Assembly: GCA_020724465.1 (NCBI GenBank)
Contig: DYGX01000021.1
Coordinates: forward strand, 1 to 62,753
DNA: 62,753 bases
From: Thermoflexus sp.
GTDB lineage: Bacteria > Chloroflexota > Anaerolineae > Aggregatilineales > Aggregatilineaceae
Direction of reading: 5' to 3'
The notes under the pieces are model-generated. The model did no database searches and was not told the DNA's origin. It worked only from the letters and a program-made list of their open reading frames with translations. Both the position numbers and the translations under genes were made by a program. Numbering within the stretch: the stretch's first letter is position 1; each line of letters opens with the position of its first letter. Below, piece by piece: positions 1 to 37,931 of the stretch.

Positions 1-107
1 AAGTATGCCAGATGAACCCTTCTTTTTTCTACTGTCGCCCCCTCAGCCCCGCGCGTGCCGGGGGTTGAGGGGGAAGTGAGGGCCGAAAAGCCCATCACAC
101 GCTCTAG
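1..107 (+). mobile_element. Partial CTAG-ended MITE-like element (right end)
   Basis: Read on the minus strand from 107, this stretch begins CTAGAGCGTGTGATGGGC. That matches the right terminal repeat seen at 40082, 56517, 13647 and 1798. The interior is a C-rich/G-rich inverted pair (CCCCCTCAGCCCC against GGGGTTGAGGGGG) like other copies of the family. A GATGAACCC tract near base 11 resembles the left-end repeat of copy 39982, but the extreme left end is lost or outside the window. The terminal CTAG (104-107) contains the stop codon of the adjacent minus-strand Nudix gene. Confidence 0.55.
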
Positions 108-1096
108 CGCAGCACCGGCCAGCGGTCGGGGTACGCCAGGTCCTGCCAGAGCTGCTGCATCCCGGCCATGCCGGGCGGCGCCCCCTGCGCCAGCAATTCG
201 CCGGGCGTCAGGAAGGCGACTTCGCTGATCTCGGTGTGGTCGGCGCGCAGGTGCCCGCCGGTGACGCGACACGCCAGCGCCAGCCCGACGCCGTGCACCA
301 CGTCCCCGTTGGGATAGGTGTAGAGCATGTCCTGGCTGTAGATGCCGATCACGCGCTCCGGCTGGACGATCAAACCGGTTTCTTCGCGCACCTCGCGGAT
401 CGCGGCGGCGGTCGTGGTCTCGCCCAGGTCGCAGTAGCCGCCCGGCACGTCGAACAGATCATCGTCGCGGCGGCGGGCGGCCAGCACGCGCCCCGCTTCG
501 TCGCGAATCACCGCCATGATGCCCGGCAGGATCACCGGCGCATGCCCGACGCGCTCGCGCAGAATCGGGTAGTAGGGAACCAGCGGCACGCGTGTGTAGA
601 CCGGCTCCAGCACCGCGTCGTGCGGGGACTCCAGCGCCGCGCGAACCATCGCCCGGTAGGCCGGGGGAAATTGCGGCAGCACCCGGTCGACCGGCAGCCA
701 GAAGACCTGAAGCGTCTCGCCGCCGTCCGCGCGGAGCGTGCCGCCAGCAGGCCGCGCCGTGACGCAGACCGTCCACTGCTGAACGTGATCGCCGTTGGGG
801 TAGAGCAGGTTGTAATCGGGGTGGCTGAACACGCCGACCAGCCGCTCAATCTCGACGTCCAGCCCGGTCTCTTCGCGCGTTTCGCGCCGGGCGCAATCCG
901 CAATGCTCTCGCCCAGCTCCAGCGCGCCGCCCGGCAGGCCGAGCCAGTCGAAGTCATAGCGGCGCTGGACCAGCAGCCGCCCGGCGTCGTCGAACACCAG
1001 CACAGTCGCGTAGACGAGATAAATCAGTTGGGGGCCGACCTGCGCGCGCAGCCAGCGCACGTAGCCATCGGCGCGGCTGACGAATGAATCGGTCAT
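104..1096 (-). CDS. Tandem Nudix hydrolase
   Basis: A 330-residue protein holding two complete Nudix domains. Both Nudix boxes fit G-x5-E-x7-REUxEExGU exactly: residues about 57-79 (ending RETREETGL) and 220-242 (ending REVREETGL). Nudix enzymes hydrolyse a nucleoside diphosphate linked to another moiety, using Mg2+ bound by the box glutamates. Both sites look intact, so this is a duplication within one gene rather than an active/dead pair. The start at MTDSF is chosen because the upstream 23 codons have no Nudix-like sequence and run into the divergent promoter region. The substrate cannot be told from the sequence. The stop codon lies in the CTAG end of a MITE-like element. Confidence 0.85.
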   Translation of the reverse strand: MTDSFVSRADGYVRWLRAQVGPQLIYLVYATVLVFDDAGRLLVQRRYDFDWLGLPGGALELGESIADCARRETREETGLDVEIERLVGVFSHPDYNLLYPNGDHVQQWTVCVTARPAGGTLRADGGETLQVFWLPVDRVLPQFPPAYRAMVRAALESPHDAVLEPVYTRVPLVPYYPILRERVGHAPVILPGIMAVIRDEAGRVLAARRRDDDLFDVPGGYCDLGETTTAAAIREVREETGLIVQPERVIGIYSQDMLYTYPNGDVVHGVGLALACRVTGGHLRADHTEISEVAFLTPGELLAQGAPPGMAGMQQLWQDLAYPDRWPVLR

Positions 1097-25084: not shown

Positions 25085-26014
25085 CTAGGACAGCATGCGA
25101 TAGAACAAGTCGTGCACGCCCTCGGTATTCAGCGCCGTGACAACATGCACGTTCGGAGCGCGCTGGCTGATGCCCATGTAGTCGACCACGGTCTGGCCGC
25201 GCGTGAGCATGCCCTGCAACTCGATGGTCACGTAGAGGTGCTGGCTTTCTACGATCAGGTCCGGCTCCAGCGCGATCGCCATCGCCAGCGGGTCCGGCAG
25301 CAGATAGCCCGGCACCTGCCGGAACTGGCGCAGAAACTGAACGGTCGAGGTGGTGATCGCCCGGAAGAACTCCGCAGCAGGCGTTCCCAGCCCGGCCAGC
25401 GTGTCGTACTGTTGCCAGCTAAAGCTGTGCTTGAGCGTGGTTTCCCACGAGAGCATCGTCGAGGCAGGGAACGCGTCGAGCGTGACCAGCACCGCTTCGG
25501 GGTCGCAGAAGGCGTTGAACTCGGCGGTCAGGTTGCGCGTGTTGCCCAGCGCCGAGATGGTGCCGCCCATGAACACCAGCGCGCCGACCTTGTCTGGGAA
25601 GGACGGATCCAGCCGGCAGGCCAGCGCCAGATTGGTGAGCGGCCCCAGCGCCACAATGGTGTAGGCCCCCGGCGCCTGGTTGGCCAGCCGCACCAGGGCG
25701 ATCGCCGCCGCTTCCGGTTCGGTCTTGCCGTGCGTTCGGCGCTCGCCGCGATAGCCACCCAGGCCGTCAGCGCCGTGCACGCGCTCTTCCGGCTCCCAGA
25801 AGCCGGGAACCAGTGGCTGGTCTGCCCCACGATAGACCGGCACGCGCGCCCCCATCAGGTCCAGCACGGTAAAGACGTTGTGGATCACTTTGTCCACATG
25901 CACGTTGCCGGTCACCGTCGTGATCGCCTCGACGCTCACGCCCGGATGCGCCAGCGCGAGCATGATCGCCTGCGCGTCGTCCACACCGGCATCGGTATCA
26001 ATGATCAATCGCAC
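25085..26014 (-). CDS. Nucleoside hydrolase (IUNH family), paralogue 1
   Basis: A 309-residue nucleoside hydrolase, which cleaves the N-glycosidic bond of ribonucleosides to base and ribose. The Ca2+/ribose-binding N-terminus reads IIDTDAGVDDAQAI (Ala replacing the usual Pro), and GPLTNLALA and FMGGT are present. The C-terminal active-site segment reads LLPDPLAMA, lacking the His of the HDPxA motif of purine/pyrimidine-nonspecific enzymes. The start is GTG 26014, supported by GAAAGG eight bases upstream; the longer open frame to 26104 is less likely. It is first in an operon with two M42-type peptidases and divergent from the BMP transporter. Confidence 0.88.
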   Translation of the reverse strand: MRLIIDTDAGVDDAQAIMLALAHPGVSVEAITTVTGNVHVDKVIHNVFTVLDLMGARVPVYRGADQPLVPGFWEPEERVHGADGLGGYRGERRTHGKTEPEAAAIALVRLANQAPGAYTIVALGPLTNLALACRLDPSFPDKVGALVFMGGTISALGNTRNLTAEFNAFCDPEAVLVTLDAFPASTMLSWETTLKHSFSWQQYDTLAGLGTPAAEFFRAITTSTVQFLRQFRQVPGYLLPDPLAMAIALEPDLIVESQHLYVTIELQGMLTRGQTVVDYMGISQRAPNVHVVTALNTEGVHDLFYRMLS

Positions 26015-26221
26015 GAATCGAACCTTTCGTTGCACATGAGGTTGCGGGCTGTCCACACGGCCCACAGACAAGGGGCTAATAGCTCTGTCGAAGGGTCGGG
26101 ACAAAGCGGCTACTATACCACTTGAGCAGGCGCCGCACCAGGAGCCAGCCGGCCCGGCGCAAACGCTTCGTCAGCCGGAGAATTACGGTCCTCCGCCCTT
26201 TTGTAATATCCCTCAAAATGC

Positions 26222-26296: not shown

Positions 26297-27472
26297 ATGA
26301 CCCGTTCGAGAATACTATCCCTGGCTCTCCTGCTTGCGCTTTCCATAACGACTCTCGTCGGCATCCCCGCAGCAACAGCTCAGGACGAACCACTCCGGAT
26401 CACCCTGGTCGTGAACGGTGTGCTGGGCGACAAGTCATTCTTCGACTCAGCACAGCGTGGTATGGACCGCCTGATCGACGAGGGGTATAACGTCACCATC
26501 AACACCCTTGAGCTGGGTATCGATCCGGCCAACTGGGAAAGCGGCCTGGCCGACGCGATGGCCGACACCGACGCCTACGACCTGCTGATCGTGGGCACGT
26601 TCCAGATGGGCGAATTCCTCGCCAAGCGCGTGCACCTGTATCCGGACAAATACTTCATCATGTACGATGATGCCGTCCGCTACGACGACCCCGAATTCTG
26701 CGTGGAAGGCTGCACCAACGTCTATTCGGTGACCTACGCCCAGAATGAAGGCTCGTTCCTGGCGGGGGTGTACGCCGGAGCCATCACCCGCAGCGATCTT
26801 GAGGGTATCAACCCGGAGCACATCATCGGCGCCATCGGCGGCCAGGATATCCCCGTGATCAACGACTTCATTGTCGGCTACGAACAGGGCGCCTGCCTGG
26901 TCAACCCGGACAACCAGACCCTGATCCAGTACGCGGGCGGCTGGAACGACCCGGCCAAGGGTAAGGAAATCGCCCTGGCGATGTACGAGCAAAAGGCCGA
27001 CATCGTCTTCCAGATCGCGGGCGGCACCGGCGTAGGCGTCTTTGAAGCGGCCTATGAGCAGGGGAAGTACGCCATTGGCGTTGACTCCGACCAGGCGCTG
27101 ATCATCGCCGAGACCGACCCTGACCAGGCGCAGCACATCCTCACCAGCATGATGAAGAACGTCGACAACTCGCTCTACCGCGCGGTGGATCTGTTCCTGG
27201 CGGGCGAGCTGCCGTTTGGTGAAGCCGAAGTGCTGGGTATTGCCGAGGGCGGCGTGGGCCTGGCCGAGAACGATATCTACGAGGACAACACGCCCGAGTG
27301 GATCCTTGACCTGATCGACGCGGTGTCCGACGCCGTGGACGAGGGCGCGATCACGATCAACACTGTGTTCGAGGACCGCGTGGAGTTGGGCTACAACCTG
27401 GCAACGGTGGGCCTGCCCTGCTCCGAGCAGCCCGAAGTTGACTTCGACGTGAGCGAGTTCCTGCCGGAATAG
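26297..27472 (+). CDS. BMP-family nucleoside-type ABC substrate-binding protein
   Basis: A 391-residue secreted protein. The signal peptide runs about residues 1-28 (ending IPAATAQ before DEPL); it lacks a lipobox Cys, so it is not an obvious lipoprotein. The mature part is a BMP/Med-type periplasmic-binding fold: LVVNGVLGDKSFFDSAQRG (first strand and phosphate-like loop), YAQNEGSFLAGVYAGA and VFQIAGGTGVGVFEAA are characteristic. Members bind purine or other nucleosides for import. It is first in a plus-strand run with a double ATPase and two permeases and has its own promoter. A hairpin after the stop may reduce read-through, giving binding protein in excess. Confidence 0.92.
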   Translation: MTRSRILSLALLLALSITTLVGIPAATAQDEPLRITLVVNGVLGDKSFFDSAQRGMDRLIDEGYNVTINTLELGIDPANWESGLADAMADTDAYDLLIVGTFQMGEFLAKRVHLYPDKYFIMYDDAVRYDDPEFCVEGCTNVYSVTYAQNEGSFLAGVYAGAITRSDLEGINPEHIIGAIGGQDIPVINDFIVGYEQGACLVNPDNQTLIQYAGGWNDPAKGKEIALAMYEQKADIVFQIAGGTGVGVFEAAYEQGKYAIGVDSDQALIIAETDPDQAQHILTSMMKNVDNSLYRAVDLFLAGELPFGEAEVLGIAEGGVGLAENDIYEDNTPEWILDLIDAVSDAVDEGAITINTVFEDRVELGYNLATVGLPCSEQPEVDFDVSEFLPE

Positions 27473-27695: not shown

Positions 27696-29243
27696 ATGAC
27701 CCTTATTCAGGCAATCGACATCGTCAAAGTCTATCCCAACGGGGTGTTGGCGAATGACCACGTGAACCTCTCGGTGAACCAGGGCGAGATTCACGCGCTG
27801 GTGGGCGAAAACGGCGCCGGCAAGACCACCCTGATGAAGGTGCTCTATGGCCTGGAGCACCCCACCTCGGGCGAGATCCGGCTGCGCGACGAACCCGTCA
27901 CCATCCACAGCCCTCAGGACGCGATCGACCTGGGGATCGGGATGGTGCACCAGAACTTCATGCTGGTCAATTCCTTCACCATCGCGCAGAACATCGTGCT
28001 AGGGCGCGAGCCGACCAACGGGCGCAGGCTGCGCGTCGACTTCGAGCAGGCGATCAAAGACACCGAGGCGCTATCCAGACAGTACGGCCTGTATGTGGAC
28101 CCGCTGGCCCGCGTCGATACCGTGCCGGTCGGCATGCGCCAGCGTGTCGAGATCCTTAAGGCGCTCTACCGTGGCGCCGAGATCCTGATCCTCGATGAGC
28201 CGACCGCCGTCCTGACCCCGCGCGAAACCGAAGACCTCTTTGACGCCATCCGCCAGTTGGTTAACGCCGGTAAAACGGTCATTTTCATCACGCACAAGCT
28301 GCGCGAGGTGATGGCCATCTCGGACCGCGTCACGGTCATGCGCGACGCGCGCACGGTGGGAACCGTCAATACCGCCGAGACGAGCGAGGCCGAGCTGGCC
28401 CGCATGATGGTAGGGCGCGAGGTTTTCATGGTGGTGGACCGCCCACCCGTCCAGCGGGGCCGGCCCGTGCTGGAAGTGAAGAACCTGACCTACATCAACG
28501 AGAACGGGCGCACCCTGCTCGACAACGCCTCGTTTCGTGTGTATGAGTCGGAAATTCTCGGCATCGCCGGCGTCGAAGGCAACGGGCAGACCGAGCTGGT
28601 CGAAGTGCTGACGGGGTTGCTGCCGGCCACCAGCGGCGAAGCCTACGTCGACGGCGTGCCGGTCTTGGGCGCAGGGCCGCGCCGGGTGCGCGAGGCCCGG
28701 GTGGCGCATATCCCCGAAGACCGGCTGACCAACGGCGTCGCCCTCACCGCCACGATCAACGACAACCTGATCGTTGACCGCTATTACCGCCCACCGTATA
28801 CGAATAGCGGCCTGCTGAACCTGGAGCAGATCCGTCTCAGCGGCGAAAACCTGATCCGGCAGTTCAACATCCTCGCCCCCAGCGGCGAGCTGCCGGTCGC
28901 TTCGCTGTCGGGCGGCAACATGCAGAAGGTCGTGGTCGCGCGCGAGCTGTCGGCGTCGCCCCGCCTGCTGATCGCCGCGCAGCCGACACGCGGTGTGGAT
29001 ATCGGCGCTATCGAGTACATTCACCAGCAACTGATCGACCAGCGCACCAACGGGCTGGCGATCCTGCTGGTGTCGGCGGACCTGCAAGAAGTCATGAAAC
29101 TGTCGGATCGCATCATGGTTATGTATAACGGCCAGATCGTCGGCATCTTCCGCAACACACCGGACCTCTCCGAAGAAACACTGGGCTTGTACATGCTGGG
29201 CGCTCAGCGGCAGTCACCGGAAGAAATGGAGCAGCTTCAATGA
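27696..29243 (+). CDS. Nucleoside-type ABC transporter ATP-binding protein (double NBD)
   Basis: A 515-residue ATPase with two nucleotide-binding domains in one chain, as in RbsA/YufO-type importers. NBD1 has Walker A GENGAGKTT (about 40-48) and Walker B ILILDEP. Its signature is degenerate (PVGMRQRVE), as usual in this family. NBD2 has the degenerate Walker A GVEGNGQTE, signature LSGGNMQK and RGVD near its end. It energises uptake by the two permeases downstream. The start is taken at MTLIQA after GGAAGTG. Its stop overlaps the permease start (ATGA), so they are coupled. Confidence 0.93.
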   Translation: MTLIQAIDIVKVYPNGVLANDHVNLSVNQGEIHALVGENGAGKTTLMKVLYGLEHPTSGEIRLRDEPVTIHSPQDAIDLGIGMVHQNFMLVNSFTIAQNIVLGREPTNGRRLRVDFEQAIKDTEALSRQYGLYVDPLARVDTVPVGMRQRVEILKALYRGAEILILDEPTAVLTPRETEDLFDAIRQLVNAGKTVIFITHKLREVMAISDRVTVMRDARTVGTVNTAETSEAELARMMVGREVFMVVDRPPVQRGRPVLEVKNLTYINENGRTLLDNASFRVYESEILGIAGVEGNGQTELVEVLTGLLPATSGEAYVDGVPVLGAGPRRVREARVAHIPEDRLTNGVALTATINDNLIVDRYYRPPYTNSGLLNLEQIRLSGENLIRQFNILAPSGELPVASLSGGNMQKVVVARELSASPRLLIAAQPTRGVDIGAIEYIHQQLIDQRTNGLAILLVSADLQEVMKLSDRIMVMYNGQIVGIFRNTPDLSEETLGLYMLGAQRQSPEEMEQLQ

Positions 29244-31378
29244 ACCCGCGACGCTCCCTTGCCACCCGCTCAGGCGGCCTGCTGGTCCTCAGCGTGCTGA
29301 TCGGTCTGCTGCTTCTGCTCGCCATCAGTATGCGCGTGTTCGGCATCACGGCCAGCATGAGCCTGGACGAAATGCGGGGCGCCATTCAGGCGGCGCCCGA
29401 TTACGGGGCGATCCTGCTGGTCAACGCGCTGATCGGCGTCTCGATGATGCTGATGATCTACGAGCTGCGCTGGGACGCCCTGCGCGTGATTCTGACCGTC
29501 GCGGTGGCGCTGGTCTTTGGCTACCTGATGACCGCGTTCTTCAATCTGGACGCGGCCAACCGGCTCTCGTCGGGCGAGTTCCGCGTCAACGTCGTGTCGG
29601 ATGTCGGGCCGCTGGTCGATATCTACTATGGAGACCGGCCTTCGGGCGAGTTCACCGGGCCGGATGCCGACGAGCCGCTCACGGAAGCGTCGTATCGCTT
29701 CGCGGGCAGTGCCGGCGACGTGCTGACCATCATGGCGTTTGCCGAGGAAGAAGACTCGCCGCTGGACCTGCAACTCACCCTGTTGGGGCCGGATGGCGAG
29801 GCCGTGGCCGAGAACCTGGACGCGTCCGACGAGCAGCGCCAGGAGTACCGCCGCCAGCTTGAAAGCCCCGGCGACGCGATCCTCGAAAACATCGAGCTGC
29901 CCGCGGACGGCGTATACACCATCGTGGTCCGGCCCGAGCCGCAGTCCGAGGTGCAGGTCGGCGAGTTTAACGTCCGCCTGGACACGGACGCCCCTTCGCC
30001 GATTGATTTCACCTATAACCAGCCAATCGGGGCCGTCTTCAACGCGCCCAACGTCGATAACCCGCTCACCGAAGCCTCGTATCGCTTCCTGGGGCGAGCG
30101 GACGACCGGGTATCAGTGCTGGCCTATGTCTTCCGCTCGAACATCGAGGTCGATCTCCAGGTCGAGCTCATCGGCCCGGACGGTAGCGTGCTCGGCCAGG
30201 CCAACGACTCGACCGAGGAACAGCGCGCCACCTTCCGCGGGCTGCTCCAGCGCGAGACCGATGCGGCACTGGAAGGCGTCCGGCTGCCAGAAGATGGGAT
30301 CTACACTGTGCGGGCGCGCCCCGAGCCGGTAGGCTTCGGCACCAAACTCAGCGAGACGGTGAAAGCGACCAATAAAGCCTACAATGCGTTTCTGTTCGGC
30401 CCGCTGAGCCGTCTCAACCGCTGGGTGACGTGGATCAAAGACGCCATCACGCTGATCATGCTCGGCCTGGCGATCGCGATCGTCTTCCGGGCGGAGCAGT
30501 TTAGCCTGGGGGCCGAGGGGCAATTGTACTTCGGCGCGCTGGTGTCCGGCGTGATCGGCTTGAGCTTCGGAGAGATTCCCAAACCGGTGCTAGTCCCGCT
30601 CGCGCTGCTCTCGGCGGCGACGGCGGGCTTTCTATGGGGCCTGCTGCCCGGCGCGCTGAAGGCGTATCTGGGCGCAAACGAGCTGGTATCAACCTTGATG
30701 CTCAACACCATCGCCATGCGCTTCTACGAGATGGTGCTGACCTTCGAACTCCAGCCCCCCAACGCCGGCTATACCGCGTCCGACTGGATCCCGGACAACG
30801 GCCTGCTGGCGCCGATCATCGACGTCAGCGGCGACCAAGTGACGATCGCTGTGTTCATCCTCATTCTGATTGTGCTCTTCGCCTGGGTGCTGATCCGGCG
30901 TACGCCGATCGGGTATGAGATCCGCATGATCGGCGCCAACATCAAGTTCGCCAACTACGGCGGCGTCAACACCAAGCGCACCATCATGCTCGCCATGGCA
31001 ATCAGCGGCGCGGTCGCCGGCCTGGCCGGGGCGCATCTGGCGCTGGGCATCCATCGCAAGCTAATCCTCAACATCTCGCTGGGTATGGCGTTCGAGGGCG
31101 TGGTTGTCGCGCTGCTGGCGCGCAATAACCCGCTGGTCGTGCCCTTCACCGGCTTGCTCTACTCGTATCTGCGTGTCGGCGCGCAGTTCATGGAGCGTGA
31201 CGCCAACGTCAGCTCCGAGGTGGTCCGCATCATCCAGGCGGTCGTGATCCTGCTCATCACCGCCGAGGCGCTCGTGACGTTCGTTCAGCGGCGCCGGAGA
31301 GTGCGCCGCGACCGGCTGAGTTCCGACATCCAGCCATCCGAGCGGCTGATGGCCGCGCCGCCGCAGCCGCCCGCCTAG
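29240..31378 (+). CDS. BMP-type ABC permease with two extracytoplasmic PPC-like repeats
   Basis: A 712-residue permease, about twice the usual YufP-type length. Three TM spans (about 11-34, 56-76, 82-100) are followed by a soluble insert (about 105-370), then the standard permease core (about 395-690) with FSLGAEGQLYFGA, ANELVSTLMLNTIA and GMAFEGVVVALLARNNP. The insert holds two clearly homologous units (about 141-234 and 270-363). Each contains PLTEASYRF, DLQ(L/V)xLxGPDG and a LPxDGxYT end, which resembles PPC-type beta-sandwich domains of secreted proteins. They should sit on the outer face, perhaps aiding substrate capture or docking of the binding protein. Start and stop fit a tight operon. 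Confidence 0.88.
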   Translation: MNPRRSLATRSGGLLVLSVLIGLLLLLAISMRVFGITASMSLDEMRGAIQAAPDYGAILLVNALIGVSMMLMIYELRWDALRVILTVAVALVFGYLMTAFFNLDAANRLSSGEFRVNVVSDVGPLVDIYYGDRPSGEFTGPDADEPLTEASYRFAGSAGDVLTIMAFAEEEDSPLDLQLTLLGPDGEAVAENLDASDEQRQEYRRQLESPGDAILENIELPADGVYTIVVRPEPQSEVQVGEFNVRLDTDAPSPIDFTYNQPIGAVFNAPNVDNPLTEASYRFLGRADDRVSVLAYVFRSNIEVDLQVELIGPDGSVLGQANDSTEEQRATFRGLLQRETDAALEGVRLPEDGIYTVRARPEPVGFGTKLSETVKATNKAYNAFLFGPLSRLNRWVTWIKDAITLIMLGLAIAIVFRAEQFSLGAEGQLYFGALVSGVIGLSFGEIPKPVLVPLALLSAATAGFLWGLLPGALKAYLGANELVSTLMLNTIAMRFYEMVLTFELQPPNAGYTASDWIPDNGLLAPIIDVSGDQVTIAVFILILIVLFAWVLIRRTPIGYEIRMIGANIKFANYGGVNTKRTIMLAMAISGAVAGLAGAHLALGIHRKLILNISLGMAFEGVVVALLARNNPLVVPFTGLLYSYLRVGAQFMERDANVSSEVVRIIQAVVILLITAEALVTFVQRRRRVRRDRLSSDIQPSERLMAAPPQPPA

Positions 31379-31388
31379 GAGCACGTCG

Positions 31389-32837
31389 ATGTTTGACACC
31401 AATCTCGTTCAAAACGTACTCGAAGGGATTTTCAGCGCGGCCTTTCTGGCGTCGATCCTGCGTGTGACGACGCCGATCCTGCTCCCGTCGCTGGGCGCGC
31501 TGATCTCGGACCGGGCGGGCGTGATCAACATCGGCCTGGAAGGCACGATGCTTGTCTCGGCCTTTACCGGCGTGGTGTTCAGCGCCTATTCGCTGGACTG
31601 GTTCGGCGAAAGCACCGGGCGCCTGATCGGCCCCTGGGTGGGGCTGCTGATGGGCGTGGTGCTCGGCGTGCTGATGGCGTTGCTGCTGGCGGTCTTTCAT
31701 CTGCGCTTCCGGGCGAACATCATCCTGTCCGGCATCGCGCTCAACATCCTCGGCTCGGCAGCGACCGTGGCGATCATGTTCGAGCTGACGGGCGACCGTG
31801 GCAATACGCAGGGCAACCTGCGCAGTATGCGCATGCCCTTCATCCAACTGCCGGACTTCCTGGGCGATATCCCGGTGGTTTCGTTTTTCTTCCGCATCTT
31901 CGACAACCAGAGCGTGATGACGTGGATCGCGTTCATCGCCGTGATCCTGGTGTGGTACTTCCTCTACCGCATGCCGACCGGCATCCACCTGCGCGCGGTT
32001 GGCGAGAACCCGGAAGCGGCGGCCTCGGTCGGCATCCGCGTCACGCGCATCCGCTATCTGGCGCTGGCCCTCAGCGGCCTGCTGGCCGGGCTGGGCGGCG
32101 TCCACATGAGCATGGGCTACCTGACCTTCTTCCAGCGCGACATGACGTCCGGGCGCGGTTTTATCGCTCTGGCAACTCCCTATCTGGGCGGCGGCCACCC
32201 GGTGGGAACCGGCCTGGCGTCGCTCGTCTTCGGGTTCTTCGACGCGCTCTCGATCCGCGTCGGCTCGCTGGAGATCCCCTCGCAACTGCCGCAGATGCTG
32301 CCCTATATGGCGACGGTCATGGCGCTGGTGATCTACGCGCTGCAGTCGCAACTGGCCGCGCGCGTACGGACGCTGCGCTCGGCAGAAGGCGCGGGTTTCG
32401 ACGCCGCCTTCTGGAAAGCAATCCGCCAGTTGAGCGTGCTGCATATGTTCATGGCGATGCTGGCCGTGTTCGGCATCATCATCAGCATCGGCATGTTCGC
32501 CGCGCCGGACGGCTTCAAAGGCCCGGAGCGCGCCTATCCGCTGGCCACGATCATCGGTGCGATCTCACTGCTGCTGATCGTCCTCAACCTGCCGTTTATG
32601 CTGAAGGTCGAGCGGATCGGCGCTCATGTCGCGCGCGCGGCTGCTGTGGCGATTCTCTCGCTGTGGGTCTATCTGGGCATCCTCTTCGATCTGATGCTGT
32701 ACACCACCACGCTGAAAGACCTGGCGCTGATCCTCGGCTTCGGCGCCGGGCTGGTTGCGGCGGCGGCGATCTGGCTGGCGCTCGGCGGCTACTATCTGCT
32801 CACCGGGCACCGCCGGCGCGCGCCCGTCCCGGCCTGA
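31389..32837 (+). CDS. BMP-type ABC permease 2 with extra C-terminal membrane region
   Basis: A 482-residue second permease of a YufPQ-type nucleoside importer. The core (about 1-320) has the family marks LGALISDRAGVINIGLEG, RANIILSGIALNILG, RAVGENPEAAASVGI and GRGFIALATPYLG. Residues about 345-475 form an additional region with about four hydrophobic spans that normal YufQ proteins (about 300-320 residues) lack. It starts 10 bases after the first permease and completes the transporter. The role of the extra membrane region is unknown. Confidence 0.9.
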   Translation: MFDTNLVQNVLEGIFSAAFLASILRVTTPILLPSLGALISDRAGVINIGLEGTMLVSAFTGVVFSAYSLDWFGESTGRLIGPWVGLLMGVVLGVLMALLLAVFHLRFRANIILSGIALNILGSAATVAIMFELTGDRGNTQGNLRSMRMPFIQLPDFLGDIPVVSFFFRIFDNQSVMTWIAFIAVILVWYFLYRMPTGIHLRAVGENPEAAASVGIRVTRIRYLALALSGLLAGLGGVHMSMGYLTFFQRDMTSGRGFIALATPYLGGGHPVGTGLASLVFGFFDALSIRVGSLEIPSQLPQMLPYMATVMALVIYALQSQLAARVRTLRSAEGAGFDAAFWKAIRQLSVLHMFMAMLAVFGIIISIGMFAAPDGFKGPERAYPLATIIGAISLLLIVLNLPFMLKVERIGAHVARAAAVAILSLWVYLGILFDLMLYTTTLKDLALILGFGAGLVAAAAIWLALGGYYLLTGHRRRAPVPA

Positions 32838-32963
32838 TACTGAGGGCTGTTTGCGCGGATGACGGGGGCGGCGCGAGCCGCCCTCTGCACAGAGCGGGCG
32901 GGGCCGAGGGGCACACGGCAGGACGCCGGCCCCGCGCCCTGACTGCGTTGAAGGAGTATGCGC

Positions 32964-33971
32964 GTGTCCGATCTCAAGAGCAAGATCCTGGGCGGGCTGT
33001 ACGGTCAGGCAATGGGCGACGCCTGGGGCATGCCCGCCTATTTCACCATCGACCAGACCTGGCAGGCCTACGGCGGCTGGATCACCGCGTTCCTGCCCGG
33101 CCCGGCGGACCATCCGGTGCATTTCGGCCTGCCGCCGGGGCGCATCACCGACGACTCCGAGCAGGCGTTCTCGCTGGCGCAAGCGTTCATCCGGCACGGC
33201 GGCGTCAGCCTGGAAGCGGCGGTCGAAGCCATCATCGCCTGGTACGACCGCGTCGGGGGCGACACCTCGCCCTATGTCGGGCCGAGCACGCGGCGCGGCG
33301 TGCAGGCGCTCAAGCGCGGCGAAGATCCGCGCCAGACGGGCAACTGGGGCGACACCAACGGCGCGCCGATGCGCATCTCGCCGGTTGGGCTGCTGCACCC
33401 CGGCGACCCAATGGGCGCCATCGAGGACGCGGCGATCGTCAGCATGCCCACGCACAACACCAGCGTTGCCGTGTCAGGCGCGTGCGCGGTCGCGGCGGCG
33501 ATCGCGGTTGGCATGCTGCCCGGCGCGACGCTCGACGCGATGATCGCGGCGGGGATGATGGGCGCGGAGATCGGCGCGACGAAAGGGCGCCCCTGGCTGG
33601 GGCCGTCGGTGGCGCGGCGCATCCGTATGGCGGTGGATATCGCGCGCGGCCCCGGCGACGCGCTGGCCCGCCTGCGCGAGCTATATGATGTGGTCGGCAC
33701 CTCGCTCTCGGTCCCGGAGACGGTCGGCTCGGCCTTCGGCGTGCTGGCGATGGCCCAGGGCGACCCAAAGCAGACCGCCATCTACGCCGCGAACCTCTCC
33801 GGCGACGCGGACACGGTCGGCGCCATCGCCTGCGCCATGGCCGGGGCGTTCAGCGGCATCGAGGCGTTCGACCCGGCGATCCTGGCCGCGCTCGACGCCG
33901 ACGAAGTGACCGCCTCGTACAACATCCGCGCGCTGGCGGACGGGCTGCTCGCGCTGGTCGAAGGCCGCTGA
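32964..33971 (+). CDS. ADP-ribosylglycohydrolase family protein
   Basis: A 335-residue protein of the DraG/ARH family. These hydrolyse N- or O-glycosidic bonds to ADP-ribose, and some members act on other ribosyl compounds. The di-metal ligands are visible: GDAWGMP near the N-terminus, ITDDSEQ (Thr-Asp-Asp) and SGDADTVGA (Asp-x-Asp-Thr) near the C-terminus. GTG 32964 is preferred because AAGGAG (32951-32956) lies seven bases before it, whereas ATG 32958 is only one base from that site. It begins the catabolic half of the nucleoside cluster after the transporter genes, so a ribosyl-hydrolase role on imported nucleoside derivatives is plausible. Confidence 0.85.
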   Translation: MSDLKSKILGGLYGQAMGDAWGMPAYFTIDQTWQAYGGWITAFLPGPADHPVHFGLPPGRITDDSEQAFSLAQAFIRHGGVSLEAAVEAIIAWYDRVGGDTSPYVGPSTRRGVQALKRGEDPRQTGNWGDTNGAPMRISPVGLLHPGDPMGAIEDAAIVSMPTHNTSVAVSGACAVAAAIAVGMLPGATLDAMIAAGMMGAEIGATKGRPWLGPSVARRIRMAVDIARGPGDALARLRELYDVVGTSLSVPETVGSAFGVLAMAQGDPKQTAIYAANLSGDADTVGAIACAMAGAFSGIEAFDPAILAALDADEVTASYNIRALADGLLALVEGR

Positions 33972-33973
33972 TC

Positions 33974-34942
33974 ATGGCGGGGCACGTCGTCTCCGTCGGC
34001 GACCTGGTGCTGGATATTATCCTGCCGGTCCGGCTGCCGGTCGTCGGCGGCGAGCACCAGGAACCGGCTTCCCGGCAGGTGGAGCCGGGCGGCGCGGCGA
34101 ACTTTCTGTTCGCGGCGCGGCACATGGGCCTGCGCGTCTCGGCGGCGGGTGCGGTCGGCGCGGACGTCTTCGGGCAGTTGATCCTCGACACCCTGCGCGC
34201 CGAAGGGATCGACACCGCGCATATCCTCGCCCTGCCCGGCTCGACGACCACGCTCGTCATCGCCCTGGCCGATACCACGACCGGGCAGCATACCTTCCTG
34301 GGCCACTACGGAACCGGCGAAGATGTGCCCTATCCAGCCGGGCTGGACACGACGATCGCCTCTGCCGACTTGCTGTTCGTGATGGGCTACACCTTCGCCG
34401 AAAAGCGGGTGGTGCCGATGGCTCTGCGCGCGCTGGATCGGGCGCGCCAGGTTGGCATCCCGGTCTATCTGGACGTGGGGCCGTTTATGGCGGCGGTCCC
34501 GCCGGAGCGGGTGCTGCACATCACCGCCCGCGCAGACCTGATCCTGATGACCGAGGACGAGGTCGGGCTGGTGAGCGAAGGGCGCGCCGGGGACGAGGCA
34601 TATGCGCAGTTGCTGGCGCGCGGTCCGCACACCCTGATCGTCAAGCGAGGCGCGTCCGGCTGCACGATCATCACCCGCGACGGTCAGACGCACGTGCCGG
34701 GCTACCCCGCCGAGGTGGTCGATACCATCGGTGCGGGAGACTGCTTCGCGGCGGCGTTCGTCGCCGGGCGGCTGAACGGGCTGAGCCTGGTCGACGCGGC
34801 GCGGCTGGCAAACGCGATGGGCGCGGCCACCGTCCAGAAAGCCGGGGCAGGCCGCAACGCGCCGACCTGCGCGGAAGTGCTGGCCGTGCTGGAGCGGGCC
34901 GGCGAGCGGCTGGATTTTCGATGCGCACAGGATTCAACTTGA
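33974..34942 (+). CDS. PfkB-family sugar/nucleoside kinase (candidate pseudouridine or ribose kinase)
   Basis: A 322-residue ribokinase-fold enzyme. The N-terminal GDLVLDIILPV, the GGAANFLFAARHMG loop, and VVDTIGAGDCFAAAFVAG with the catalytic Asp and anion hole are all intact. It starts two bases after the ADP-ribosylglycohydrolase stop and is followed by psuG 40 bases later. In many bacteria psuG is paired with a PfkB-type pseudouridine kinase (PsuK), so this gene is the best candidate for that step. Ribokinase activity on ribose from the nucleoside hydrolases is the alternative. Confidence 0.85.
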   Translation: MAGHVVSVGDLVLDIILPVRLPVVGGEHQEPASRQVEPGGAANFLFAARHMGLRVSAAGAVGADVFGQLILDTLRAEGIDTAHILALPGSTTTLVIALADTTTGQHTFLGHYGTGEDVPYPAGLDTTIASADLLFVMGYTFAEKRVVPMALRALDRARQVGIPVYLDVGPFMAAVPPERVLHITARADLILMTEDEVGLVSEGRAGDEAYAQLLARGPHTLIVKRGASGCTIITRDGQTHVPGYPAEVVDTIGAGDCFAAAFVAGRLNGLSLVDAARLANAMGAATVQKAGAGRNAPTCAEVLAVLERAGERLDFRCAQDST

Positions 34943-34982: not shown

Positions 34983-35912
34983 ATGAAGGATGCACTTGTG
35001 TTTTCCGAAGAAGTGGCCGCCGCGCTGATGTCCGGGTCGGCGGTGGTGGCGCTCGAATCGACGCTGATCACGCATGGCTTCGCCTATCCGGCCAACGTCA
35101 CGACGGCGCTGGCGATGGAAGACGCCATCCGCGCAGAAGGCGCCGTCCCGGCCACGATCGCCGTGCTGGACGGCAGGATCACGGTTGGCCTCAGCCGCGA
35201 GCAGATCGAGATGCTGGCCGGGCTGGGGCAGGTGGGCGTGCGCAAATGCTCGCGGCGCGACCTGCCGATCGCCATCGGGCTGCGCCAGCACGGCGCGACG
35301 ACCGTCGCCGGGACGATGATCGCGGCGCATCTGGCCGGGATCAAGGTCTTTGCCACCGGTGGGATCGGCGGCGTGCATCGCGGCCACCCGCAGGACATCT
35401 CGGCGGACCTGATCGAGCTGGGTCGCACGCCCATCACCGTCGTCTGCGCGGGGGCGAAGTCGATCCTCGACCTGCCGCTGACGCTCGAAGTGCTCGAAAC
35501 GCAGGGCGTCCCGGTACTTGGCTACGGGACGGACACCCTGCCCGCGTTCTACAGCCGGTCGAGCGGGCTGCCGATCGACCAGCGCGTGGACACCCCGGAA
35601 GAAGTCGCGGCCATCGTCGCGGCACGGGACGCGCTCGGCCTGCAGCACGGCACGCTGGTCACGGTCCCGGTGCCGGAAGCGGACGCGCTTCCGGTGGACG
35701 AGGCGGAGCGGGCCATCGAGCAGGCCACCCGCGAAGCCGACGCGCAGGGCATCCATGGCAAGGACGTCACGCCGTTTGTGCTGGCGCGCGTGCTGGAGCT
35801 AACCGGCGGGCGCTCGCAGGCAGCTAACATCGCAGCGCTGGTCAACAACGCGCGCGTTGGCGCGCAGATCGCGCTCGCGATTGCCGGGGCAGCCAAAGTC
35901 ACGGGGGCGTAG
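34983..35912 (+). CDS. psuG: Pseudouridine-5'-phosphate glycosidase
   Basis: A 309-residue PsuG. It cleaves the C-C bond of pseudouridine 5'-phosphate to uracil and ribose 5-phosphate. Recognisable blocks are VALESTLITHGFAYP near the N-terminus, VGVRKCSRRDLP, KVFATGGIGGVHRG, and the segment beginning VVCAGAKSILDLP. The Glu and Lys residues associated with Schiff-base chemistry in this family are present in these blocks. It follows a PfkB-type kinase and is followed, two bases later, by a nucleoside hydrolase. Confidence 0.96.
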   Translation: MKDALVFSEEVAAALMSGSAVVALESTLITHGFAYPANVTTALAMEDAIRAEGAVPATIAVLDGRITVGLSREQIEMLAGLGQVGVRKCSRRDLPIAIGLRQHGATTVAGTMIAAHLAGIKVFATGGIGGVHRGHPQDISADLIELGRTPITVVCAGAKSILDLPLTLEVLETQGVPVLGYGTDTLPAFYSRSSGLPIDQRVDTPEEVAAIVAARDALGLQHGTLVTVPVPEADALPVDEAERAIEQATREADAQGIHGKDVTPFVLARVLELTGGRSQAANIAALVNNARVGAQIALAIAGAAKVTGA

Positions 35913-35914
35913 GG

Positions 35915-36865
35915 ATGGCGCGCAAAATCATCATCGACACCGATCCGGGCGTGGATGACGCGATGGCGATCTTCTTCGCGCTGCGCTCGCCGGAGCTGGA
36001 CGTCATCGGCCTGACGACCGTCTTCGGCAACGTCCACACCGATCTGGCCACCACCAACGCGCTGCGCCTGCTGGAGATCGCCGGGCGGACCGACATCCCG
36101 GTTGCCAAAGGGGCGGACGATCCGCTGGCCGGGCCGTTCAAGGGGCCGGTTCCCTTCGTGCATGGCGACGACGGCCAGGGCAACGCCAACCTGCCCGCGC
36201 CGCGCTCTCGCCCCATCGACCAGCCCGCGGCGGCCTTCATCGTGGAGCAGATCATGGCCGCGCCGGGCGAGATCACGCTGGTGCCGATCGGCCCGCTGAC
36301 TAACATCGCGCTCGCCCTGCGGCTGGAGCCGCGCATCGCGCAGCACGTCAAAGAGGTCGTGCTGATGGGCGGGAACGCGCTCTGCCCCGGCAACGCGACC
36401 CCCGCCGCCGAAGCCAACATCCACAACGACCCCGAAGCGGCAGACGTGGTCTTTGGCGCGGGCTGGCCGGTGACGATGGTCGGGCTGGATGTGACGCACC
36501 AGGTCAACATGACGCCAGAACATCTGGCGCGCTACGCCGCGTCGGACGACCCGCTGGCGCAGCATATCGCCCGCATCATACCCCACTACCGCGCCTATTT
36601 CGAGCGCGCCAATCCGGGGATGCGCGGCATTTACGTGCACGACTCGTCCGCAATCGCCTATGTGATCGACCCGACGCTCTTTGAAACCAGGCAATGGCCG
36701 CTCCGGGTCGAGACGCAAGGCGTCAGCCGGGGCAAAACCTGGCCGGCGGTCGGGACGGGCGCCGAGCAGTTGCCGGCGGCGTGGCGCAATCGCCCGCCGG
36801 TCAATGTCTGCGTCGGCGTGGACGCGGAACGCCTGATCGCGCTGGAAGCGGGACGGCTGACGTAG
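35915..36865 (+). CDS. Nucleoside hydrolase (IUNH family), paralogue 2
   Basis: A 316-residue nucleoside hydrolase with the canonical IIDTDPGVDDAMAI metal/ribose-binding motif, GPLTNIALA, VLMGGN, and a C-terminal YVHDSSAIAY segment that keeps the active-site His. Of the three paralogues in the window this is the one with the complete classical motif set. It therefore probably hydrolyses common purine or pyrimidine ribonucleosides to base and ribose. It starts two bases after psuG. Confidence 0.93.
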   Translation: MARKIIIDTDPGVDDAMAIFFALRSPELDVIGLTTVFGNVHTDLATTNALRLLEIAGRTDIPVAKGADDPLAGPFKGPVPFVHGDDGQGNANLPAPRSRPIDQPAAAFIVEQIMAAPGEITLVPIGPLTNIALALRLEPRIAQHVKEVVLMGGNALCPGNATPAAEANIHNDPEAADVVFGAGWPVTMVGLDVTHQVNMTPEHLARYAASDDPLAQHIARIIPHYRAYFERANPGMRGIYVHDSSAIAYVIDPTLFETRQWPLRVETQGVSRGKTWPAVGTGAEQLPAAWRNRPPVNVCVGVDAERLIALEAGRLT

Positions 36866-36959: not shown

Positions 36960-37931
36960 ATGACTCGTAAGATGATTATCGACACCGACACCGCCTCGGA
37001 CGACGCCGTCGCGATCATGATGGCGCTGCAAACGCCCGACATCGAGGTCGAGGCAATCACTATCGTCGCCGGAAACATGCCGGTTGACCAGGGCAGCATC
37101 AACGCGCGCTACACCGTCGAGTTGTGCGGCAAGGACGTGCCGGTCTATCACGGCGCGGACGCCCCGCTGACACGCGAGGTCTATCGCGCCTACTTCTTCC
37201 ACGGGCCGGACGGCATGGGCGGCATGAACTATCGGACCACGCGCCCGGTCGCCGAGGGGCACGCGGTCGACGTGCTGATCGACACCATCAAGGCCAACCC
37301 CGGCATCATCCTCGTCACGCTCGGCCCCTTGACCAATGTCGCCCTGGCGCTCGCCAAAGCGCCGGAGATCGTCGGGAACGTCAGCCGCTGCGTGGTGATG
37401 GGCGGCGCAGCCTGCACCGTCGGCAACATCACCCCTGCCGCCGAGTACAACATCTGGTGCGACCCTGAGGCGGCGCGGATGTGCTTCCGCTCCGGCCTGC
37501 CGATCGAGATGGTCGGTTGGGAGCTGTGCCGCGGCGAGGCGAACCTCTCCGACGAAGACATGCGCTACTGCAAAGAAGTCATCAACACGCCGCTGTCGCA
37601 CTTCGCGATCGACTGCAACATCTCGGCGCTGGAAGCCAACCGCAACTGGCTGGGCGACCCCGGCCTGGGCCTGCCGGACCCGGTCGCCATGGCGATCGCG
37701 ATCGACCCGACGATCTGCACGCGGAGCAGCAAACACTACGTCGACGTCGAGTGCGACGGCACGTTCACGCGCGGCATGACGGTGGTCGATCAGCTGGGCG
37801 TGACGGGGTATGACACGGCCAACGTTGAGATGTGGCGCCCGCTGCGCGAAAAGGGCGAGCCGTGGGTCACGGTTTGCTGGGAGATCGACGCGCAACGCTG
37901 GAAAGACCTGCTCTACCAGACGATGCGCTGA
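36960..37931 (+). CDS. Nucleoside hydrolase (IUNH family), paralogue 3
   Basis: A 323-residue paralogue with an altered N-terminal motif, [14 protein letters not shown]. The three Ca2+-ligating Asp positions are kept but Pro-Gly-Val is replaced by Thr-Ala-Ser. GPLTNVALA and VVMGGAA are normal. The C-terminal segment reads [10 protein letters not shown], lacking the His that precedes Asp in paralogue 2. It is Cys-rich for this family. The changes suggest a different nucleoside or nucleoside analogue as substrate. It is separated from paralogue 2 by 94 bases and followed by an unusual decamer repeat array. Confidence 0.9.

Follow-up and report, generated by a model that had tools for sequence, protein, structure and literature searches.

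PPC-like units in a predicted extracellular loop of a BMP-type ABC importer permease of Thermoflexus sp.

The question raised by this locus is what a domain type best known from secreted enzymes is doing inside a membrane permease. The window, meaning the whole stretch of DNA analysed (62,753 nucleotides, contig DYGX01000021.1 of Thermoflexus sp., phylum Chloroflexota, order Aggregatilineales), encodes an ATP-binding cassette (ABC) importer, one of whose two permeases, here called permease A, is interrupted by two homologous units that resemble PPC domains (Table 1). The insert is a real and probably folded, extracellular and evolutionarily stable addition to an importer of known type.

The insert and its position in permease A

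Each of the three motifs on which the original prediction based its two homologous units is indeed present twice in permease A: PLTEASYRF (residues 146-154 and 275-283), GPDG (183-186 and 312-315) and LPxDGxYT (220-227 and 349-356). The units align over 123 residues without gaps at 41.5% identity (BLASTP E 5e-36), and their Smith-Waterman score of 269 lies 44 standard deviations above that of 2000 shuffles (30.5 +/- 5.4), none of which scored as high. The location after transmembrane helix 3 (TM3) was correctly given, but the insert is a little longer than the 260 residues first estimated.

Modelled alone by AlphaFold2 with 35 homologous inserts, the insert is predicted to fold as two beta-sandwiches (predicted local distance difference test, pLDDT, 82.2; predicted TM-score, pTM, 0.76) rather than to be unstructured, an outcome that had been named in advance as fatal to the proposal; parts of it fall below pLDDT 50 in the model of the full-length protein. 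The top Foldseek match is the tandem collagen-binding domain (CBD) of ColG (5iku, E 1.8e-5). By VIA-align, a ColG CBD (1nqj_A, Z 12.4, root mean square deviation 2.1 over 94 residues) and the PPC domain of a B. anthracis collagenase (5sv5, Z 12.1) rank at the top, both on unit 1, where most of the matches fall, the search having used the whole insert model; the tandem CBD 5iku covers both units (22..258, Z 10.8, root mean square deviation 12.2). The modelled fold is thus that of the collagenase-type PPC/CBD beta-sandwich. Pfam PPC (PF04151, cut-off 25.9) scores 23.6 in the whole protein and 28.2 on the insert alone, in unit 1 only, and matches 7 of 36 insert sequences at E <= 0.01, and a sequence search of the PDB with the insert gave chance-level matches only (best E 0.23). 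The identification of the units as PPC-type beta-sandwiches, as originally proposed, is well supported by the insert model, and because the Pfam scores straddle the cut-off and concern unit 1 only, the fold carries more of this label than the sequence does.

Helix boundaries were assigned by us from hydropathy windows and AlphaFold2 helices, not by a trained topology predictor, and the two sources give 9 segments and 12 helices, respectively, for permease A of the window. The full-length model had no Foldseek match at E <= 0.001. Among the VIA-align matches listed, beyond which MalF or DALI-type relatives could lie, its core aligns with HmuU (4g1u, Z 16.7), BtuC (Z 15.6 and 14.5), the metal-chelate importer 2nq2 (Z 14.2) and BhuU (5b58 and 5b57, Z 12.7 and 12.2); for helical bundles, Z below about 13 can reflect a common arrangement. 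Because the alignments with 2nq2, HmuU and BhuU do not start until model residues 66-73, close to TM3, the first two helices are probably extra, TM3 being the first helix of the core and the insert lying in the first loop of the core; both BtuC alignments begin at model residue 7. Five helices separate the insert from loop 554-578, which we take to be the counterpart of the ATPase-coupling loop in such permeases. With a predicted cytoplasmic N-terminus (three K/R, no D/E) and a basic C-terminus (seven K/R) predicted to lie inside, an extracellular position of the insert is well supported by helix parity, in agreement with the original prediction, which a cytoplasmic insert would have contradicted.

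Distribution and evolution of the insert

Permeases with the same insert, for which a search had been proposed, were found in one-unit and two-unit forms, together with insert-less orthologs. At E <= 1e-10 the insert profile found matches in 62 of 154 genomes from the order. Ten of these have two matches; among those with a single match, 48 have it in frames of 571-747 residues and 2 in cut or broken frames (G521, G525); the last 2 have shorter frames that match partially (G499, G507). Among 400 genomes across the phylum, for each of which at most nine candidates were scored, so that relatives could be missed, no strong match was found except in the window's genome; weak matches occurred in three other genomes, and two of the proteins concerned (L164, L165), read by eye, are not permeases. 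Only one of the frames that account for the 32 BPD_transp_2 matches in the window's genome is hit by the insert profile. A targeted search of open-access text for ABC permeases with a PPC domain found no paper.

From 68 strong-match rows, 59 non-redundant full-length orthologs were aligned, after removal of the window itself (L001, L006), L009 (the same genome as L038 by sequence), two two-unit proteins cut by contig ends (L016, L039), a cut insert-less protein (L026), a broken frame (L082) and two duplicates (L021, L022). Between fixed columns, the linker measures 11 residues in 3 proteins, 156-158 residues (one unit) in 47, and 277-283 residues (two units) in 9; all three states have in common, by hydropathy, the three helices that precede the insert. 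When the insert was left out and a maximum-likelihood tree of the core was built, the two-unit proteins formed one group (support 100/98), next to which stand three one-unit members of the same family (100/98 for all 12). On this tree two changes, the minimum, explain the linker states, namely a single gain (or loss) and a single duplication. The two-unit state is the derived form and belongs to one lineage, and whether the insert-less group, which sits on a long branch, never had the module or lost it depends on the root.

The dN/dS ratios in eight ortholog pairs were 0.056-0.349 for the insert and 0.039-0.129 for the core, and maintenance of the units under purifying selection is supported. 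Neither unit has degenerated after the duplication, since the nine two-unit proteins retain the conserved single-unit positions about equally in both (191 of 234 and 199 of 234).

In other permeases the same loop holds a second, unrelated insert. In six related permeases from other genomes of the order (L205-L208, L210, L211; frames of 766-882 residues), a single N-terminal helix is followed by a segment (A/T)YxxLxE, an insert and the usual core, in that order. This insert adds about 290-420 residues relative to two insert-less paralogs (a distance of 303-437 versus 17), has no Pfam match, and is acidic and, from its composition and by eye, probably helical. An ATPase and a permease B adjoin all five of these permeases for which wider stretches are available (all but L210). 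In the window, the PPC units precede the segment AYNAFLFGPL, whereas the second insert follows the corresponding segment, and the two kinds of insertion therefore look independent.

Possible functions of the insert

Residues 398-673 of permease A match BPD_transp_2 (PF02653) at 137.9 bits (cut-off 26.8), the binding protein encoded upstream matches the BMP family (PF02608) at 196.6 bits, and the cluster also contains a tandem ATPase and a second permease (permease B), so that permease A can be assigned by sequence to a BMP-type nucleoside ABC importer. From the BMP family and the neighbouring nucleoside hydrolases we infer that nucleosides are transported. The putative B6 ABC transporter permease 2 model of NCBIfam (NF047929) scores 117.4 bits, below its equivalog cut-off of 400, and a PDB sequence search with permease A found no permease relative.

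The known permease most similar in plan that was considered is MalF of the E. coli maltose importer, whose binding protein is MalE. MalF is a BPD_transp_1 protein of a type I importer, in which the P2 region, of immunoglobulin-like fold, lies between TM3 and TM4. As in MalF, a large extracytoplasmic domain follows extra N-terminal helices in permease A, where it occupies the first core loop on a model of moderate confidence. In the relevant passages of PMC3150292, P2 (residues 91-271) directly contacts MalE, and passages there and in PMC8134467 describe it as moving as a rigid body in simulation. Permease A differs in belonging to BPD_transp_2, with a BtuC/HmuU-like fold and no BPD_transp_1 among its Pfam matches up to E 0.1, and in having a PPC-like module in 0, 1 or 2 copies, for which docking is predicted, whereas contact with the binding protein is what MalF-P2 is cited for; homology of the two inserts is not established. 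An extracytoplasmic importer domain in contact with a binding protein is therefore already known, in another permease superfamily. The original claim of a new importer architecture holds to the extent that insert-less orthologs lack the feature, but is weakened by the similar plan of MalF and by the presence of a single unit in 47 of the 56 insert-bearing proteins aligned.

The YufNOPQ system of B. subtilis is a BMP/PnrA-type nucleoside importer. Importers of this type have the same parts, namely a BMP-family binding protein, an ATPase and two permeases, as described in part of PMC7093131 for Borrelia BmpD with BB0677-0679; the present importer differs by the two extra helices and PPC units of permease A and by a hydrophobic tail on permease B. 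With the PPC domains of secreted peptidases (ColG and ColH CBDs, B. anthracis collagenase, Tk-SP) the units share the fold (Z 11-12), the Pfam PPC match being weak, but those domains belong to secreted enzymes and not to an internal loop of a membrane channel. The ligand-gated ion channel DeCLIC (6v4s, 9eva, Z about 10) also has beta-sandwich domains outside a membrane protein; it is not a transporter, and its domains are N-terminal rather than inserted in a loop.

By analogy with MalF-P2, the best explanation considered is that the insert serves the secreted nucleoside-binding protein as a docking cap, an interpretation that could with equal justice be accepted or doubted. The PPC units would stand beside the channel mouth, catch and orient the secreted, non-lipidated binding protein, and perhaps signal its loaded state through TM3 and TM4, while the second unit would make the arm longer or the contact surface wider; the hydrolases, kinase and glycosidase encoded in the cluster would then cleave and use the imported nucleosides. 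The sole comparative hint at docking, a weak one, is covariation: in partial Mantel tests over 47 loci, insert distances track BMP distances beyond those of the core (r 0.16, p 0.026; r 0.20, p 0.012 with all controls) and do not track those of the cytoplasmic ATPase (r -0.18).

Several observations weigh against docking. Partial Mantel tests over-call on related sequences, for which reason the covariation is given little weight; BMP is tracked more strongly by the core (r 0.42) than by the insert, and permease B distances, too, are correlated with those of the insert (r 0.16, p 0.028). Evolution is faster in the insert than in the core (mean identity 0.56 versus 0.70), and the full-length model of permease A is of moderate quality (pLDDT 67.2, pTM 0.57). 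In the window's genome, 39 of 43 binding-protein frames examined have no lipobox (three have one, and one has no called signal), and in the three genomes with insert-less orthologs the BMPs, 50-54% identical to the window's and presumably the partners, have none either, so a free binding protein can presumably be retained without a cap. Two one-unit genomes (G004, G011) have a BMP relative as part of a lipid-anchored fusion protein, so that a free BMP and the insert are not strictly coupled.

Among other explanations, binding of a wall, sheath or matrix polymer by the PPC units, positioning the importer in a layered envelope with no contact to BMP, is unlikely but deserves attention. PPC-fold domains are chiefly known from secreted enzymes such as ColG and ColH, both among the fold matches, as modules that bind substrate or collagen; the window's genome has 16 Pfam PPC matches, the window's own included, among which L168 looks membrane-anchored and L169 secreted by eye; and the envelope of a member of the Chloroflexota is described as multilayered in a passage of PMC13319060. 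A loop between two core helices would be an odd place for an anchor, and the BMP covariation weakly favours docking. Rather unlikely, too, is a structural or assembly role for the pair of permeases, linked to the tail of permease B and without docking. Measured from the equivalent of residue 310, this tail reaches at least 150 residues in 43 of the 45 one-unit loci and 8 of the 9 two-unit loci that have permease B, and it mostly contains three or four hydrophobic segments. The exceptions are L017 (120 residues) and two loci cut by contig ends, whereas none of the three insert-less loci has a long tail (2-6 residues); the correlation of insert and permease B distances points the same way. By hydropathy the tail is membrane-embedded and the insert extracellular, which would limit direct contact. 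In the 16 BMP rows compared, a five-residue insertion and an extended C-terminus also distinguish the 13 from insert-bearing loci from the 3 of insert-less genomes; because these differences, the tail and the insert all separate the same two branches, the pairing among them cannot be told.

An extra capture site, at which nucleosides, nucleotides or nucleic-acid fragments would bind to the PPC units and be passed to the channel, is improbable: the RNA-uptake ectodomains of SIDT1/SID1 are among the fold matches, but at Z 8-9, a level common to many unrelated beta-sandwiches, and a high-affinity site is already expected from BMP. The patchy spread alone would suit a neutral decoration or an artefact of assembly or gene modelling, which is contradicted by the ortholog series and very improbable given the single open frame in the window, the same length states in many separate assemblies, the purifying selection and the conservation of both units after duplication. 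A tether specifically for non-lipidated BMP was also considered for the cap and rejected, the lack of a lipobox being general in the genome and shared by the BMPs of insert-less genomes.

The way in which binding proteins locate importers and signal to them is understood best for MalF-P2. If the docking interpretation is correct, the PPC units represent a second, unrelated solution to binding-protein docking, in another permease superfamily than MalF-P2, and the series of 0, 1 and 2 units is a natural dose experiment in which ortholog comparison or removal of units could probe the role of the cap. It would also be relevant to the way in which binding proteins that mostly lack a lipid anchor function at the surface of Chloroflexota. 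A wider interpretation, possible though somewhat doubtful, is that in this order the first extracellular loop of permease A is a docking platform that independently took in unrelated domains, namely a PPC module that was doubled later and, in related permeases, the probably helical insert of about 290-420 residues, a MalF-P2-like cap having arisen in BtuC-like importers by convergence for soluble non-lipidated binding proteins.

Gene cluster and binding proteins

Table 1. Features of permease A and of the surrounding gene cluster in the window
Feature	Position	Strand	Remarks
Permease A	29240..31378	+	712 residues; BPD_transp_2 family; carries the insert
Two probably extra N-terminal TM helices	29276..29464	+	Residues ~13-75; also in insert-less orthologs
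TM3, probable first helix of 10-TM core	29483..29545	+	Residues ~82-102
Insert, predicted extracellular	29549..30394	+	Residues 104-385; 282 residues
PPC-like unit 1	29573..29941	+	Residues 112-234
PPC-like unit 2	29960..30328	+	Residues 241-363
Core TM2-TM10 of permease A	30425..31291	+	Residues ~396-684
BMP/PnrA-type nucleoside-binding protein	26297..27472	+	Signal peptide without lipobox
Tandem ABC ATPase	27696..29243	+	Importer gene
Permease B	31389..32837	+	482 residues
C-terminal tail of permease B	32376..32834	+	Four hydrophobic segments; no Pfam match; occurs with insert
ADP-ribosylglycohydrolase-family protein	32958..33971	+	Conserved neighbour
PfkB-family kinase	33974..34942	+	Conserved neighbour
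Indigoidine_A family protein	34983..35912	+	Family match; presumably of pseudouridine-5'-phosphate glycosidase type
Nucleoside hydrolase	35915..36865	+	Family match
Nucleoside hydrolase	36960..37931	+	Family match
Nucleoside hydrolase	25085..26104	-	Divergent from operon

The cluster is largely conserved with the insert. The 47 one-unit loci include an ATPase (47), permease B (45), BMP (41), ADP-ribosylglycohydrolase (41), PfkB-family kinase (39) and hydrolase (36), and the corresponding numbers for the nine two-unit loci are 9, 9, 8, 8, 7 and 7, some absences being contig ends. The three insert-less pairs of permeases A and B have neither BMP nor ATPase in the fetched stretches, and BMP relatives are found elsewhere in those genomes.

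Of 51 BMPs encoded beside insert-bearing permeases, 50 have no lipobox, a lone pattern match in L047 lying upstream of the likely start, and the remaining one (L071) is cut before the N-terminus. The 43 binding-protein frames of the window's genome comprise all 3 BMP and 30 SBP_bac_1 loci and 10 of 30 Peripla_BP_4 loci; second domains of the same frames (L135, L137, L139) and lower-scoring loci (L146-L162), several with LacI-type DNA-binding starts, were left out. Their signal peptides mostly end in AxAQ-like sites, which is unusual for a phylum considered monoderm; some tomograms suggest that Chloroflexota are not monoderm (in a passage of PMC13319060).

The fusion protein of G011 (L183:4174-7743) and G004 (L182, a frame that runs off the contig) is a lipoprotein with lipobox LAAC, E/A-rich linkers, two BMP domains and one SBP_bac_3 domain (Pfam on L183 only). 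Its first BMP domain is the relative (75-80%) of the BMP of the window, and BMP is missing beside permease A in these genomes. In L183 it is followed, by eye, by a 676-residue frame and an ABC-ATPase-like frame, and in G010 only its second half is present, at a contig end (L186). A 759-residue part of a single open frame in G037 (L209:2073-4349) joins a BMP domain to a BMP-type permease downstream, with no visible signal peptide, and is either a true fusion or an assembly error. The window's genome has three open frames with tandem pairs of Peripla_BP_4 domains (G000:C44:103949-105667, C25:148149-149777 and C25:84272-86101).

In one one-unit locus (L048:1880-4095), a DNA methylase gene (N6_N4_Mtase, E 3e-40) and an overlapping unmatched open reading frame, possibly a restriction enzyme, lie between BMP and ATPase. 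Similar frames are present in L058 and L072, similarly sized frame pairs occur in L055, L070, L074, L083 and L084, and another methylase-like frame is found in L060.

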